The notes: generated by a model from the letters alone, not told the origin. A stretch of 64,000 nt of DNA from Fibrobacter sp. (GCA_017526585.1 JAFXRC010000073.1:1-64000), one strand, 5' to 3'. Positions 34,828 through 40,072 are shown, numbered from the stretch's first letter. Program-made: numbers and translations.

Positions 34828-35142
34828 ATGAAACTCTACACAACTGACTTTATCACCGGCAAGGAAATCGAAACGCTTCAGATGGTACGCGGGAGCGTGG
34901 TCTTTAGCAAGAATGTGGCTCGCGACTTTTTCGCAGCAGTCAAGACGCTTGTGGGTGGCGAAATCGCCGGTTACACCGAAATGCTGAATGACGCCCGTAA
35001 CATCGCGGTCGAACGTATGGAAAATCAGGCCGGGATCATCGGCGCTGACGCTATTGTGAACGTGCGCTTCGCAACTGCCTCGGTGATGGCAGGCTCCGCA
35101 GAAATCATTGCCTACGGAACCGCCGTCAAGTTCAAGAAATAG
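34828..35142 (+). CDS. YbjQ/UPF0145 family protein
   Basis: This 104-residue protein matches the YbjQ (UPF0145) family: it has the V-R-G-S-V segment (LQMVRGSVVFSKNVARDF), ARNIAVERMENQA and the G-A-D-A-I-V-N-V-R-F core (GADAIVNVRFATASVM). Members form pentameric rings and are sometimes labelled heavy-metal-binding, without firm function. An AAGGAG site precedes the ATG. It is a single gene between two terminators. Confidence 0.9.
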   Translation: MKLYTTDFITGKEIETLQMVRGSVVFSKNVARDFFAAVKTLVGGEIAGYTEMLNDARNIAVERMENQAGIIGADAIVNVRFATASVMAGSAEIIAYGTAVKFKK

Positions 35143-35261: not shown

Positions 35262-36065
35262 ATGTTCTACAAACATTGGAAGAAACTAGCGCTGGCTTTA
35301 ACCGGATTCTTTTGGGTTAGCTGCGACAGCGATAGCACCTCTGCAAACGGAGCAGAAGAACCGACCAGCTCTAGCAATATAACACCGACTAGCAGCGTCT
35401 CGAATCAAGAATCTAGTTCCAGCGAAGCGACCAGTAGCGAAACGAGTTCCAGTTCCGAGGCAGCCAAGCCAGAAAGTTCCAGCAGCGACTTTGGAATGTC
35501 AATGCCACTATATGGCGTTATCATGGACAAAACTGTATGCACCCAGGCTGAGGGCGATTCCACGATGACATGCGGTGACGGTGTAAACTGCACGCTAAGA
35601 AGCCAGGAGAGTTGGGAAAGTCTTCCCTGCATCGAAGATATTTGTCCCGATTACGGCGTAGTCCGAATTTCCGAAAACACCTACGAATGCGACGGCAAGA
35701 TTTACAGCGAGGCCGAATTCAGGTCCCGTTACAACCAAGTCATCATTCCCAAAGATTCCAGCGAAGCGACCGGTAGCGAAACGCTTTGCTTTAACGATAG
35801 CGTGCAAAATACTGAAGGCAGGGTGTTCAAGATTATCGACTGCATTGACGGAAACAAATACCTGAGGGACCCCTCCGCTGCAGGTGTGGAAGGCGTTGAG
35901 CTCCCCGAAGGTGTCCAGGTGTTCGCCCCGAAGGCGGGTAGTGAACAGGCCCCGAACTGCACCGAAACCGGAGACATCTGCATCGAACGGAACCCAAATC
36001 TAACGGTCGAAGAAGATTCCCTTGCCGGTTGCCACCAAGTTATCGATTGTCCTCCCAAACCGTAA
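35262..36065 (+). CDS. Cysteine-rich lipoprotein A of a radical SAM/lipoprotein cluster
   Basis: This 267-residue protein has a lipoprotein signal with the lipid-bearing Cys at residue 21 (TGFFWVSC). A Ser/Glu/Thr-rich linker spans residues 23-78, as in many Fibrobacter surface proteins. The mature part holds about twelve cysteines and two YG motifs, MPLYGV (near 84) and CPDYGV (near 128), followed by YECDGKIYSEAEFRSRY. The N-terminus MFYKHWKK is shared with the next gene's product. An AAGGAG lies before the ATG, the only good ribosome site in the cluster. It is probably a substrate or partner of the radical SAM enzyme at 36529. No other domain is recognised. Confidence 0.72.
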   Translation: MFYKHWKKLALALTGFFWVSCDSDSTSANGAEEPTSSSNITPTSSVSNQESSSSEATSSETSSSSEAAKPESSSSDFGMSMPLYGVIMDKTVCTQAEGDSTMTCGDGVNCTLRSQESWESLPCIEDICPDYGVVRISENTYECDGKIYSEAEFRSRYNQVIIPKDSSEATGSETLCFNDSVQNTEGRVFKIIDCIDGNKYLRDPSAAGVEGVELPEGVQVFAPKAGSEQAPNCTETGDICIERNPNLTVEEDSLAGCHQVIDCPPKP

Positions 36066-36071
36066 AAAAAC

Positions 36072-36100
36072 ATTTCACACTCCACATTTCACACTACACC
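36072..36100. repeat. Degenerate 7-bp tandem repeat (AYTYCAC) before lipoprotein B
   Basis: ATTTCAC, ACTCCAC, ATTTCAC, ACTACAC occupy 36072-36099 in 7-base phase, one base before the ATG at 36101. They fill the space where a Shine-Dalgarno site would be. Confidence 0.75.
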
Positions 36101-36472
36101 ATGTTCTATAAACATTGGAAAAAATTTCTATTAAGCCTGTGCGCTCTTTTCTGGAGCGGCTGCAGCGACGACTCCTCTAGCGACAGCAAGGAACTGATCG
36201 CCTGCGATCTTGAACAGATGTGCCCCGAATACGGCATTATGTACGATTGCGAAAACGAAGAGGACGAAATTTCCGGGAACTTCGAGAACTGCACCATGTC
36301 GTACCCCGCGTGTACGGATACTTATTATTGTGAAGACGACGTCACCTGTTTCCAATCGACCGACGACGAAACGAAAACTTTCGACTGTCGCGATGAAAAG
36401 GATAAAAAGACGCTCTATAGCGAAGACGAATTCAAGTCAAAATACTACGTCGAAAGTGAGCGCATCCATTAA
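36101..36472 (+). CDS. Cysteine-rich lipoprotein B of a radical SAM/lipoprotein cluster
   Basis: This 123-residue paralogue of the preceding lipoprotein shares the start MFYKHWKK, lipid Cys at residue 21 (ALFWSGC), the motif CPEYGI (Cys 41), and an ending like that of lipoprotein A's central part (LYSEDEFKSKYYVE versus IYSEAEFRSRY). It lacks the Ser-rich linker and is very acidic. Around nine cysteines occur in the mature part. I take ATG 36101, since upstream in-frame codons lie in the previous gene and the repeat. It has no Shine-Dalgarno site; the heptamer array abuts the start. It is 56 bases from the radical SAM gene. Confidence 0.72.
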   Translation: MFYKHWKKFLLSLCALFWSGCSDDSSSDSKELIACDLEQMCPEYGIMYDCENEEDEISGNFENCTMSYPACTDTYYCEDDVTCFQSTDDETKTFDCRDEKDKKTLYSEDEFKSKYYVESERIH

Positions 36473-36528
36473 ATTTCACATTTCACACCTCACACTTCAC
36501 ACCTCACATTTTACACTCCACACTTTTT
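36473..36528. repeat. Eight-unit degenerate 7-bp tandem repeat abutting the radical SAM start codon
   Basis: Units in exact phase are ATTTCAC, ATTTCAC, ACCTCAC, ACTTCAC, ACCTCAC, ATTTTAC, ACTCCAC, ACTTTTT, and the ATG begins at the next base (36529). The whole lipoprotein B to radical SAM spacer consists of the array. It matches the units before lipoprotein B. No Shine-Dalgarno motif is present. Confidence 0.85.
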
Positions 36529-37605
36529 ATGCAACTTTCTCTTAAAAAGAAACTCGCTCTCGAGGCATATCGCCTTTACCGCCACAACGAAATCAAGGCA
36601 CACCCGCTCACGTACTTTTTCTGGGAATGCACGCTGCGCTGCAATTTGCACTGTCTGCATTGCGGTAGCGACTGCGTGAAAGATGCCATCCCCGACATGC
36701 CTCGCGAAGATTTCATGAACGTGCTGGATAAGCTTGCCCCGCATATTGACCCGAAACACTTCATCGTGGTGATTACCGGCGGCGAACCCCTGATGCGCCC
36801 GGACCTCGAAGAATGCGGGCAAGAAATCAAAAAGCGCGGCTACCCCTGGGGCATGGTCAGCAACGGCCTTGCCATGACGCCCGAACGCTACACCAAGCTG
36901 CTGAATGCCGGGCTGCGCTCGCTCACGATTAGCCTCGACGGCCTCAAGGAAAGCCACAACCATTTCCGCGGCGCCCCCACGAGTTTCGACAACGCACTCC
37001 GCGCCATCGACATGGCCGCCCACACGCAAGGCCTCACCTTCGACGTGATGACCTGCGTGAACCGCCAGAATCTCAAGGAACTCCCGAAGATTCTCGACAT
37101 CCTCCTGAAAATCGGCGTAAAGCGCTGGCGTATCGCGACGGTGTTCCCAAAGGGCCGCGCGAAGGACAATCCGCTGTTCCAGCTCACCAACCAGGAATTC
37201 CGCCAGGTGTTCGACTTTATCCGCGAAGTCAAGAAACTGAACGTCATCAACGTGAACTACGGCTGCGAAGGGTTCCTCGGCAGCTACGAGAAGGACGCGC
37301 GCAACTACCCGTTCTTCTGCCGTGCCGGCGTGAACGTCTCTTCTGTGCTTTGCGACGGCAGCATTTCGGCTTGCCCGAGCCTCCGCGGCGACTACATACA
37401 AGGCAACATCTACAAGGACGACCTCTGGGACGTATGGCAGAACCGCTACCAGGTAATGCGCGACCGCAGCTGGGCAAAAATCGGCGACTGCAAGACCTGC
37501 AAGTACTGGCGCTACTGCGAAGGCTCCAGCCTGCACTTACGTGATGAAAAGACCAAAGAGCTTGCATACTGCCACGTAGCGAGACTCGAAGCCGCTGGTG
37601 CATAG
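36529..37605 (+). CDS. Radical SAM/SPASM enzyme of a lipoprotein-associated system
   Basis: This 358-residue enzyme has the radical SAM [4Fe-4S] motif C-x3-C-x2-C in FWECTLRCNLHCLHCGSDC (residues 27-45), then VITGGEPLMRPDLEE and SLDGLKESHNHFRG. The C-terminal SPASM region carries further cysteines (FFCRAGVNVSSVLCDGSISA, CKTCKYWRYCEG) for auxiliary clusters. SPASM enzymes modify peptides or proteins. The opening motif is very close to the family I remember as rSAM/lipoprotein system (TIGR04133), paired in Bacteroidetes with small lipoproteins. The two lipoproteins just upstream fit that pairing. The reaction is unknown. A strong terminator ends the cluster. Confidence 0.85.
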   Translation: MQLSLKKKLALEAYRLYRHNEIKAHPLTYFFWECTLRCNLHCLHCGSDCVKDAIPDMPREDFMNVLDKLAPHIDPKHFIVVITGGEPLMRPDLEECGQEIKKRGYPWGMVSNGLAMTPERYTKLLNAGLRSLTISLDGLKESHNHFRGAPTSFDNALRAIDMAAHTQGLTFDVMTCVNRQNLKELPKILDILLKIGVKRWRIATVFPKGRAKDNPLFQLTNQEFRQVFDFIREVKKLNVINVNYGCEGFLGSYEKDARNYPFFCRAGVNVSSVLCDGSISACPSLRGDYIQGNIYKDDLWDVWQNRYQVMRDRSWAKIGDCKTCKYWRYCEGSSLHLRDEKTKELAYCHVARLEAAGA

Positions 37606-37924: not shown

Positions 37925-40072
37925 ATGATGGAACCAGTAAGCCTGACATCGAATCAAGAGCATATCGTTGATTCGCTTTTAAAGAAGAATCCCAAGCTGG
38001 ATCGAGGGGTTCTTTCTCAGGCTGTTACCTTTATCGCAGAGGCTCACGAAGGTCAGTACCGCAAGAGTGGCATGCCCTACACCGAGCACCCCTACGAAGT
38101 CGCCAAAATCCTCGCTGACCTTAAGCAAGACCAGCCGACCGTGCTTGCCGGGTTATTGCACGATGTCGTCGAAGATACCGACCACTCGCTCGAAGAAATT
38201 GCCCAGAAGTTTGGTGAAGACACGGCCTTCATGGTCGATGCCGTCACAAAGATTACTGCCGCCCAGGAATCAAGCAAGACCGCCCAGAAGGCGGAAACCT
38301 ACCGTAAGTTGATTACGGCCATGGCAAAAGACCCTCGGGTCATCATGATCAAAATCGCAGACCGCATCCACAACATGCGCACCATGCGGTACATGAAACC
38401 CGAAAAAAGGCAAGCCATTGCGCAGGAAACACTCGACATTTACATTCCTCTCACGCACCGCTTTGGTCTCTACAAGCTGAAAAACGAGCTCGAAGACCTG
38501 AGCTTTAAGTACGTGAACCCCGACGAGTACCAAAAGCTGGTGGACCTCCTCATCGAAAACAAGGAGTCCCGCGAAAAGTACATCCAGTCGGTGATAGGAC
38601 CTTTGCAGATCAAGATGGCGCTCGAAGATTTCGACTGCACCATCCAGGGACGCACCAAGAACATTTACAGCATCTACAACAAGATGATCAGCCGTGGGTG
38701 CCAGTTCGAAGACATTTTCGATATCTTCGCCATCCGCATCATCGTAGAGACCATTCCCGAATGCTACCTGGCGCTGGGTTATGTCCACAACCTGTGGACT
38801 CCGCTGCAGAGCCGCTTCAAGGACTACATCGCGACCCCTAAGCCGAACCTTTACCAGAGCATCCACACCACGGTCATCGGCCCCGAAAACAAGATGGTCG
38901 AAATCCAGATCCGCACCAAGGACATGGACCTGACCGCCGAAAAGGGATTCGCCGCCCACTGGGCATACAAGCTTGAAACTCAGCACGAGGGCGAAGAACT
39001 CGCCTGGCTGAACCACATGGTCAAGCTCCAGTCCGAAATTTCGGACTCCAAGGAATACCTGGACTTCTTGAAGGTGGACCTGAAGCCGTCGGGCATGACG
39101 GTTTTCACCCCCAAGGGCACCTCCATCGAACTTCCGCAGGGTTCCATCGTCTTGGACTTCGCCTTTGCCGTCCACACCGAGCTGGGCCTGCACTGCATTG
39201 GCGCCCGCATCAACGACGAGGTGGTGAACCTCGATACGGTCGTAGAGCATGGGGCCACTATTCAGGTGCTCAAGAGCCCGAACCAGGAACCGAGCCCCGA
39301 ATGGCTCGACATGGTCAAGACAGTCAAGGCCAAGCAGGAACTGCGCCGTTGGATGAAAAGCAGCATCATGAAGCAGTCGCTCAGCCTTGGCAAGGAAATC
39401 TGGGACCGCGAACTGCGCCTGCAAAAAATCGAAAAGGACAAGCGGCCGACCGAAGAATCCATTTGCAAATACTTTGGCACCCCCACCATCGACGATTTCT
39501 ACGAACGCATTGGCCAGGGCGAACTGCCCCTGGCAGACATCCAGCGGTTCCTGAACGGTGGCGAAACCACGCAAAAAGAATCGACGACACTCAGGTTCTT
39601 CCCGAAGTTCAACAAGGACCTGAAGGCGGACCGCCGCGACGAAATGCCACTGCAGATTGGCCAGGAAACCAGTCTCGTGGTGCAATTCGCCAAGTGCTGT
39701 GCACCGATTCCTGGCGACCCGATTGTGGGAATCCTCCGCCCAAAGATTGGCATCGAGGTCCACACGACGGACTGCCCGCAACTGAAGAACCTTCCGGAAG
39801 ACCAGCATATCGCAGTCGAATGGAGCGAAGACATCAAGCACTCCTTCGAAGCGCACCTCACCATCGAGACCGAGAACCGCAAGAACATCACCTTCGATGT
39901 GCTGCAAGAACTCAAGCGTGCAAACGTATTCCTGGAAAGGGTCACCTCGGCTAGCAAGCATTATTCCGGACGAATCCGCCTGGTGTTCAAGGCGTTCCGC
40001 AAGGAACAGGTCGACACCATCATCAATGCGATCAAGAACATTCCCGGCGTAAAACAGGTGGTTAAATCATGA
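37925..40072 (+). CDS. rel: Bifunctional (p)ppGpp synthetase/hydrolase, Rel/SpoT
   Basis: This 715-residue protein makes and degrades the stringent-response alarmone (p)ppGpp. The HD hydrolase site is intact (YTEHPYEVAKIL, GLLHDVVEDTDHS, KIADRIHNMRTMRYM). The synthetase domain shows SRFKDYIATPKPNLYQSIHT and VEIQIRTKDMD with AAHWAYK. A TGS domain (MTVFTPKGTSIELPQGS) follows, then the conserved-Cys segment FAKCCAPIPGDPIVG and a terminal ACT domain. Length fits a full-size Rel. The gene overlaps the next one by four bases (ATGA at 40069-40072). Confidence 0.95.
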   Translation: MMEPVSLTSNQEHIVDSLLKKNPKLDRGVLSQAVTFIAEAHEGQYRKSGMPYTEHPYEVAKILADLKQDQPTVLAGLLHDVVEDTDHSLEEIAQKFGEDTAFMVDAVTKITAAQESSKTAQKAETYRKLITAMAKDPRVIMIKIADRIHNMRTMRYMKPEKRQAIAQETLDIYIPLTHRFGLYKLKNELEDLSFKYVNPDEYQKLVDLLIENKESREKYIQSVIGPLQIKMALEDFDCTIQGRTKNIYSIYNKMISRGCQFEDIFDIFAIRIIVETIPECYLALGYVHNLWTPLQSRFKDYIATPKPNLYQSIHTTVIGPENKMVEIQIRTKDMDLTAEKGFAAHWAYKLETQHEGEELAWLNHMVKLQSEISDSKEYLDFLKVDLKPSGMTVFTPKGTSIELPQGSIVLDFAFAVHTELGLHCIGARINDEVVNLDTVVEHGATIQVLKSPNQEPSPEWLDMVKTVKAKQELRRWMKSSIMKQSLSLGKEIWDRELRLQKIEKDKRPTEESICKYFGTPTIDDFYERIGQGELPLADIQRFLNGGETTQKESTTLRFFPKFNKDLKADRRDEMPLQIGQETSLVVQFAKCCAPIPGDPIVGILRPKIGIEVHTTDCPQLKNLPEDQHIAVEWSEDIKHSFEAHLTIETENRKNITFDVLQELKRANVFLERVTSASKHYSGRIRLVFKAFRKEQVDTIINAIKNIPGVKQVVKS

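Follow-up and report, generated by a model that had tools for sequence, protein, structure and literature searches.

The stretch of DNA analysed here, hereafter the window, is 64,000 nt long and belongs to a genome of the genus Fibrobacter (75 contigs, 81% complete). It contains three genes on the same strand, coding in this order for lipoprotein A, lipoprotein B and a radical SAM/SPASM enzyme, and flanked by a ybjQ-like gene and a relA/spoT-like gene. Precisely, the features of this region are the following:

34828-35142: ybjQ-like gene, 5′ flank of the unit
35262..36065, + strand: lipoprotein A, 267 aa, with signal peptide, lipid-attachment Cys21, Ser-rich linker, Cys-rich region (13 Cys in total) and two XYG sites
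35271..35285, + strand: KHWKK in the signal peptide n-region of A, conserved, proposed as enzyme recognition element
35322..35324, + strand: lipid-attachment Cys21 of A, in the lipobox WVSC
35508..35516, + strand: XYG site 1 of A, Leu83-Tyr84-Gly85, in the context MPLYGVI, which resembles the published PlpXY tag PIRPLYGLPI
35649..35657, + strand: XYG site 2 of A, Asp130-Tyr131-Gly132, in the context CPDYGVV
36066..36100, + strand: A-B spacer, with a CACATTTCACAC-type repeat
36101..36472, + strand: lipoprotein B, 123 aa, with signal peptide, lipid-attachment Cys21, a Cys-rich (10 Cys), mostly beta domain and one XYG site
36110..36124, + strand: KHWKK in the signal peptide of B
36161..36163, + strand: lipid-attachment Cys21 of B
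36227..36235, + strand: XYG site of B, Glu43-Tyr44-Gly45, in the context CPEYGIM, placed by the model in a loop between strands 33-40 and 47-49
36473..36528, + strand: B-enzyme spacer, with the TTTCACACYTCACA repeat, the same as in the A-B spacer
36529..37605, + strand: radical SAM/SPASM enzyme of family TIGR04133, 358 aa, proposed XYG splicease
36640..36663, + strand: radical SAM [4Fe-4S] motif C38-x3-C42-x2-C45, flanked by two more invariant Cys, C34 and C49
37264..37572, + strand: SPASM region, with invariant C246, C264, C282, C321, C324, C330 and C348
37631..37656 (to about 37660), + strand: hairpin with a 9-bp stem and an 8-nt loop followed by TTTT, just 3′ of the enzyme, a probable terminator as read from the sequence
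37925-40072: relA/spoT-like gene, recognised from its sequence, 3′ flank of the unit

The open reading frames, their coordinates, Cys21 and the motifs of A, B and the enzyme had all been given correctly in an earlier reading of the same DNA made without database searches, hereafter the sequence-only reading. We considered the ATG at 36101 as the start of lipoprotein B, since it gives the signal peptide seen in the relatives of B; a longer ORF starting with TTG at 36029 is unlikely. The unit most likely ends just after the enzyme, given the hairpin and its short T tail, and this hairpin was not among the results of a consensus terminator scan, which requires at least five T. A sigma-70 promoter scan of the unit was uninformative, and no RNA element was found in it with Rfam. 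Within the window the CACATTTCACAC/TTTCACACYTCACA repeats are confined to the two spacers, which they make up (4 matches against 0.06 expected); they are also present directly upstream of the enzyme in four other loci (L024, L027, L039 and L040).

The enzyme was searched against TIGR04133 (rSAM_w_lipo), the family that the sequence-only reading had named for it, and this proved right: the score was 620.9 bits against a cut-off of 425, over model positions 1-350 of 350. Pfam gave PF04055 (Radical_SAM, 75.1 bits) and PF13186 (SPASM, 32.8 bits), and membership of both groups is met, the CX3CX2C motif and the auxiliary-cluster Cys being present. C34, C38, C42, C45, C49, C246, C264, C282, C321, C324, C330 and C348 are invariant in 20 diverse TIGR04133 members. 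The fourth Cys of the usual CX2CX5CX3C SPASM run is absent, and C246 is extra relative to TIGR04103, which we take to be the family IPR026482 that holds PlpX. As far as the Cys pattern alone allows us to infer, auxiliary cluster I may have three Cys ligands and possibly an open site. In the AlphaFold2 model (pLDDT 86.3, pTM 0.88) only an N-terminal helix precedes the core, so that no separate peptide-recognition domain is present. Among solved structures, those closest to the model are of the peptide maturases SuiB, SkfB and PqqE.

Against TIGR04103 the enzyme scored 140.1 bits, far under the cut-off of 725, hence membership is not met. Models of heme enzymes such as AhbD gave about the same score (137 bits), as did NirJ2 approximately, so homology alone does not fix the reaction. 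In the tree TIGR04133 groups with TIGR04103 and TIGR03913, apart from PqqE, MftC, NirJ and TIGR04053 (UFBoot 94); this tree contained few splicease representatives and neither AhbD nor NirJ2, and support is 64-75% at the nodes immediately above the TIGR04133 clade. The blocks HCGS, GxAxxN, YxGxYE and CPSL...GNI are common to TIGR04133 and TIGR04103, and a TIGR04103 enzyme on a Nostoc plasmid had the best E-value among the plasmid proteins outside TIGR04133 (1e-35, 93% coverage). A function in anti-phage defence was considered and rejected: the PADLOC matches of the enzyme were to viperin, itself a radical SAM protein, over the common core, and there were none for A and B.

Lipoproteins A and B both open with MFYKHWKK, carry the lipid Cys at residue 21 and have in common a C-P-(D/E)-Y-G-(V/I) site, which reads C-P-D-Y131-G132-V in A and C-P-E-Y44-G45-I in B. 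A second site, M-P-L-Y84-G85-V, is found in A only. Their alignment is confined to the signal peptide (13 of 21 residues identical) and to the CPxYG site; the paralogy claimed by the sequence-only reading holds for these two parts and fails over the whole length, where no alignment was obtained. Neither protein had a family match in NCBIfam, Pfam or PADLOC. TIGR04133 and TIGR04134 are a named radical SAM-lipoprotein pair in NCBIfam, of unknown function. Membership of A and B in TIGR04134 (cut-off 39.8 bits) was rejected, with no match at E<=1 for either protein and with all the positive controls (L106, L225 and L226) matched; that the lipoproteins differ in sequence from this family had been expected from the sequence-only reading. 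The best TIGR04134 score in the same genome was 16.5 bits, at another place than A and B. No Nif11 or NHLP leader was matched above the Pfam cut-off on A or B, which have signal peptides in their place. The model of B is of modest quality (pLDDT 74, pTM 0.52) and its fold had no PDB match at E<0.001. Among the 15 members of the B family, one has a weak match (E 7.6e-4) to NF008475, the model of C-type lysozyme inhibitors.

The TIGR04133 enzyme was above cut-off in 71 of 80 Fibrobacter genomes and in 89 of the 168 genomes of the phylum Fibrobacterota. Many of the Fibrobacter genomes have another copy of it, at about 600 bits. In several genomes (G052:C51, G061:C327, G067:C23 and others) two TIGR04133 genes lie about 1-5 kb apart. 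Conserved co-occurrence across Fibrobacter genomes, the absence of which the sequence-only reading had set as a refutation of the pairing, was thus checked and the pairing survived it. An XYG lipoprotein lies beside nearly every enzyme having enough upstream sequence, no other conserved neighbour was seen in the loci surveyed, and the pairing recurs in Fibrobacterota, Bacteroidota, Neomarinimicrobiota and Spirochaetota. The enzyme varies little between loci, whereas the lipoproteins differ both in their sequence and in how many there are; in one locus (L049), for instance, the enzyme is 96% identical and the B-type protein 53%.

We considered as adjacent the lipoproteins ending at most 250 nt upstream of the enzyme, which gave 43 Fibrobacter loci. 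YG was present in 42 of these 43 lipoproteins, with 104 YG observed against 23 expected, and in all 15 adjacent lipoproteins of the Bacteroidales group. The control set consisted of 11 Ser-rich Fibrobacter lipoproteins away from the enzyme, and not of the whole-genome lipoprotein set. These controls had 10 YG against 9.7 expected and no instance of [PA]xYG[VIPTA]; for YG given Y, adjacent versus control lipoproteins, the Fisher p was 3e-6. Since the controls are Ser-rich and yet have YG at the level of chance, the Ser-rich surface linker, pointed out by the sequence-only reading in one lipoprotein and indeed present in A, is ordinary in Fibrobacter, and the YG motif is not. Two exceptions were found, namely an adjacent Fibrobacter lipoprotein without YG (L066) and a 71% complete genome (G060) in which no enzyme was detected and a KHWKK lipoprotein with XYG is nevertheless present.

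Within the motif only Tyr and Gly are fixed. Of the 191 sites of the form [PA][LAKEDM].G[VIPTA], 187 have Y in the middle, and of the 208 sites of the form [PA][LAKEDM]Y.[VIPTAC], 190 have G after Y; by contrast the preceding X varies among L, E, A, K, D, M and V (117 partner proteins, all lineages). Partner proteins have from 1 to 7 sites, and YG is frequently followed by V, I, P or T. Fibrobacter sites read [PAC]-X-Y-G-[VIPAC]-(P), where X is most often L, followed by K, E, D, A and V.

The signal peptides of the Fibrobacter partners are also conserved, with the consensus [FL]YKHWKKxxLxLTxFFWxxC. In 114 partners the stretch that precedes the lipid Cys has K (77%), H (76%), W (76%), K (74%) and K (75%), followed further on by F (75%) and W (87%) and then by x-x-C. 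This position-by-position conservation is far above what a signal peptide needs. The KHWKK DNA pattern occurs twice in the genome under study, at A and at B. Genus-wide, 113 of the 150 sites listed are at most 8 kb away from an enzyme gene; 112 of them share its strand and 105 lie upstream of it. The distant sites examined either have a lipobox, and then XYG too, or are short chance frames or one unrelated protein. KHWKK lipoprotein signal peptides are restricted to XYG lipoproteins. The pattern is present in 61 of 71 genomes with the enzyme against 3 of 9 without it (Fisher p = 0.0015), although these three include chance frames and the nine genomes include several incomplete ones. In the Bacteroidales partners the signal peptide is conserved in a different version, with aromatic-x-K in 28 of 31. 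We infer, without any experimental test, that the enzyme reads the signal peptide n-region like a RiPP leader.

Outside Fibrobacter the partners are built on other scaffolds. In Bacteroidales and on a Treponema plasmid the enzyme is paired with TIGR04134 lipoproteins, which have for example EYGVPHADY soon after the lipid Cys. The partners in Neomarinimicrobiota are lipoproteins of 75-83 aa made mostly of just XYG sites (PPAEYGPEPLYGTVEPLYGV; PPPAEYGPEPLYGTVEPLYGV), and in both Bacteroidales and Neomarinimicrobiota they have mostly one or two Cys. As only the enzyme and the YG site are common across the scaffolds, the YG site is arguably where the enzyme acts.

Further arrangements were observed in other loci. 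On the Treponema saccharophilum plasmid (L225 2306-4598) the TIGR04133 gene and its TIGR04134 lipoprotein adjoin an invertase-type recombinase; the pair thus reaches Spirochaetota and may be mobile. In a distant Fibrobacterota family (L135-L146) the partners are exported proteins and not lipoproteins, with DYGI, EYGV or WYGI and a long conserved N-terminus, MGKxxxxxSxWSxRSLxxLYSKxxTLxFALFCxxSGQ; a T9SS sorting tail was confirmed in one of them (L145). A divergent TIGR04133-like clade (about 275 bits) occurs in 8 Fibrobacter genomes, and in the 6 loci read (L148-L153) its partner, lying about 1.07 kb from where the enzyme begins and after it, is a cytoplasmic-looking zinc-ribbon protein with conserved (I/L)YGPP, possibly a non-exported substrate. 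DUF1843 'GDL motif' peptides beside TIGR03913-type enzymes (L227 2656-3369, L229 2028-2743) start with PMYMA, PMYAA or KPYGVA, starts that, by their residues, suggest a related Tyr-centred site.

The partners meet the rule given for splicease substrates, namely XYG with Gly right after Tyr and X free (PMC10533398; PMC10373908). The natural sites of PlpX are MYG and LYG, and the published PlpXY tags read PIRPLYGLPI (PMC10533398). The Fibrobacter consensus P-L-Y-G-V-P is close to the RPLYGLPI of these tags and to the ALYGLPPELF of the Nif11 precursor, ending in GSIALYGLPPELF, that adjoins the TIGR04103 (PlpX-type) enzyme of the Nostoc plasmid. No PlpY counterpart was found in TIGR04133 loci when the small protein beside the Nostoc enzyme was compared by phmmer with the locus ORFs; it matched only itself. 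The PlpXY spliceases and their spliceotides were reportedly treated by Morinaka et al. in 2018.

The enzyme family, the gene pairing and the motif conservation are established by these observations, and the enzyme-substrate relation, the role of the signal peptide, the type of reaction and the biological role are our inferences. In the absence of direct evidence of modification, we hold that the lipoproteins are very probably substrates of the enzyme. We think it probable, with the chemistry inferred and open to revision, that the three genes are one modification unit whose enzyme works on the XYG sites prior to export, with tyramine splicing as the most likely reaction. Precisely, the enzyme would bind the lipoprotein precursors in the cytoplasm through the conserved signal peptide, which would double as a RiPP-like leader, and would then act at the X-Tyr-Gly sites ahead of Sec export and lipidation. 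A modification near YG preceding export had been inferred by the sequence-only reading, which named no chemistry; it is the XYG motif that points to tyramine splicing. The putative reaction is the one of PlpX, in which C8H9NO is excised from XYG and most of the Tyr leaves the backbone. The expected products would be alpha-keto-beta-amino acids in surface lipoproteins, with X residues Leu83 and Asp130 in A and Glu43 in B, and the mature lipoproteins would expose electrophilic ketoamides on the cell envelope. In ketoamide inhibitors X occupies P1, and the proteases targeted would accordingly differ between partners with L, A, K, D, E and M sites. The site of B sits, in its model, in a loop of a disulfide-rich beta domain. 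Spliceotide products have been described as protease inhibitors (PMC11117315), and the lipoproteins might plausibly be such inhibitors, with P1 = X, in variable multi-gene arrays; a bank of surface-anchored protease inhibitors is the role we favour, as a speculation.

Another radical SAM reaction at the YG sites, such as a Tyr crosslink (a three-residue Tyr-Gly-X cyclophane or a Tyr-Cys thioether), an epimerisation or a side-chain oxidation, is a less likely explanation that still has to be kept in mind. SPASM peptide maturases perform many such reactions, and among the nearest structures SuiB makes a crosslink and SkfB a thioether, besides PqqE; V, I, P or T frequently come next after YG, and Cys-rich partners are numerous. 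A crosslink, however, should constrain the partner residue, and only Tyr and Gly are fixed. Nor is Cys needed, judging from the few Cys of the Bacteroidales and Neomarinimicrobiota partners, and the splicease rule asks for just this, a Gly directly following Tyr and no constraint on X (PMC10533398; PMC10373908).

We give little credit to the possibility that the lipoproteins are not substrates, that YG is a docking or sorting signal and that the enzyme acts on another encoded product or on a small molecule. No product is known, and the similar scores of the tetrapyrrole enzyme models AhbD and NirJ2 leave room for it; but the YG motif tracks the enzyme over unrelated scaffolds, non-lipoproteins included, ordinary lipoproteins from the same genomes do not have it, no other conserved neighbour offers itself, and sequence and structure place the enzyme among peptide maturases. 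Chance neighbourhood of a generic lipoprotein pair and an unrelated radical SAM gene is in practice excluded: Ser-rich lipoproteins are certainly numerous in Fibrobacter, but the pairing recurs in four phyla, the motif enrichment is far over the controls and the co-occurrence survey came out opposite to what chance would predict.

Compared with the TIGR04133/TIGR04134 pair, the unit has the same full-length TIGR04133 enzyme with a YG-containing exported lipoprotein directly upstream, in the gene order of Paludibacter, Parabacteroides and Treponema. The Fibrobacter partners differ in lacking the carboxypeptidase-regulatory-like domain, in being Cys-rich with mostly Ser-rich linkers, and in forming arrays of varying number with their own conserved signal peptide. 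With the PlpXY spliceases it has in common a SPASM radical SAM enzyme, XYG in a P-L-Y-G-x-P context, multiple sites per precursor and the sequence blocks; in contrast, its enzyme is well under the TIGR04103 cut-off, there is no PlpY and no Nif11/NHLP leader, and the substrates would be exported lipoproteins of about 100-450 aa and not cleaved peptides. The TIGR03913 maturase with DUF1843 peptides has a related enzyme in the same tree group and short precursors that have a motif centred on Y close to their start (KPYGVAI, RPMYMAT), but its small peptides have no signal peptide, several have no G after Y, and the enzyme has a C-terminal extension.

A literature search found no paper naming TIGR04133 or TIGR04134; its coverage did not include Scott et al. 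2022, said to be on widespread splicing, or Richter et al. 2024. As far as can be told, the Fibrobacter partner families, the YG rule that holds across several kinds of scaffold, the leader-like KHWKK signal peptide and the proposal that TIGR04133 enzymes are spliceases are new, although Scott et al. 2022 may cover part of this.

Reading YG as a splicease site would give a specific reaction, with a fixed mass change, to a pair that has had no function, in gut Bacteroidales and in a genus that plays a central part in the digestion of cellulose in the rumen. As a tentative proposal, which could well turn out to be wrong, TIGR04133 enzymes would be a PlpY-independent class of spliceases using secretion signal peptides as leaders and placing ketoamide beta-residues in entire proteins of the cell surface, both lipoproteins and T9SS cargo, in several phyla, with a bank of surface-anchored electrophilic inhibitors in Fibrobacter. 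Small one-enzyme spliceases without PlpY would suit protein labelling. If the proposal is true, the signal peptide also serves as a modification leader, and backbone-edited beta-residues would be ordinary in long surface-anchored bacterial proteins and not only in small peptide natural products.
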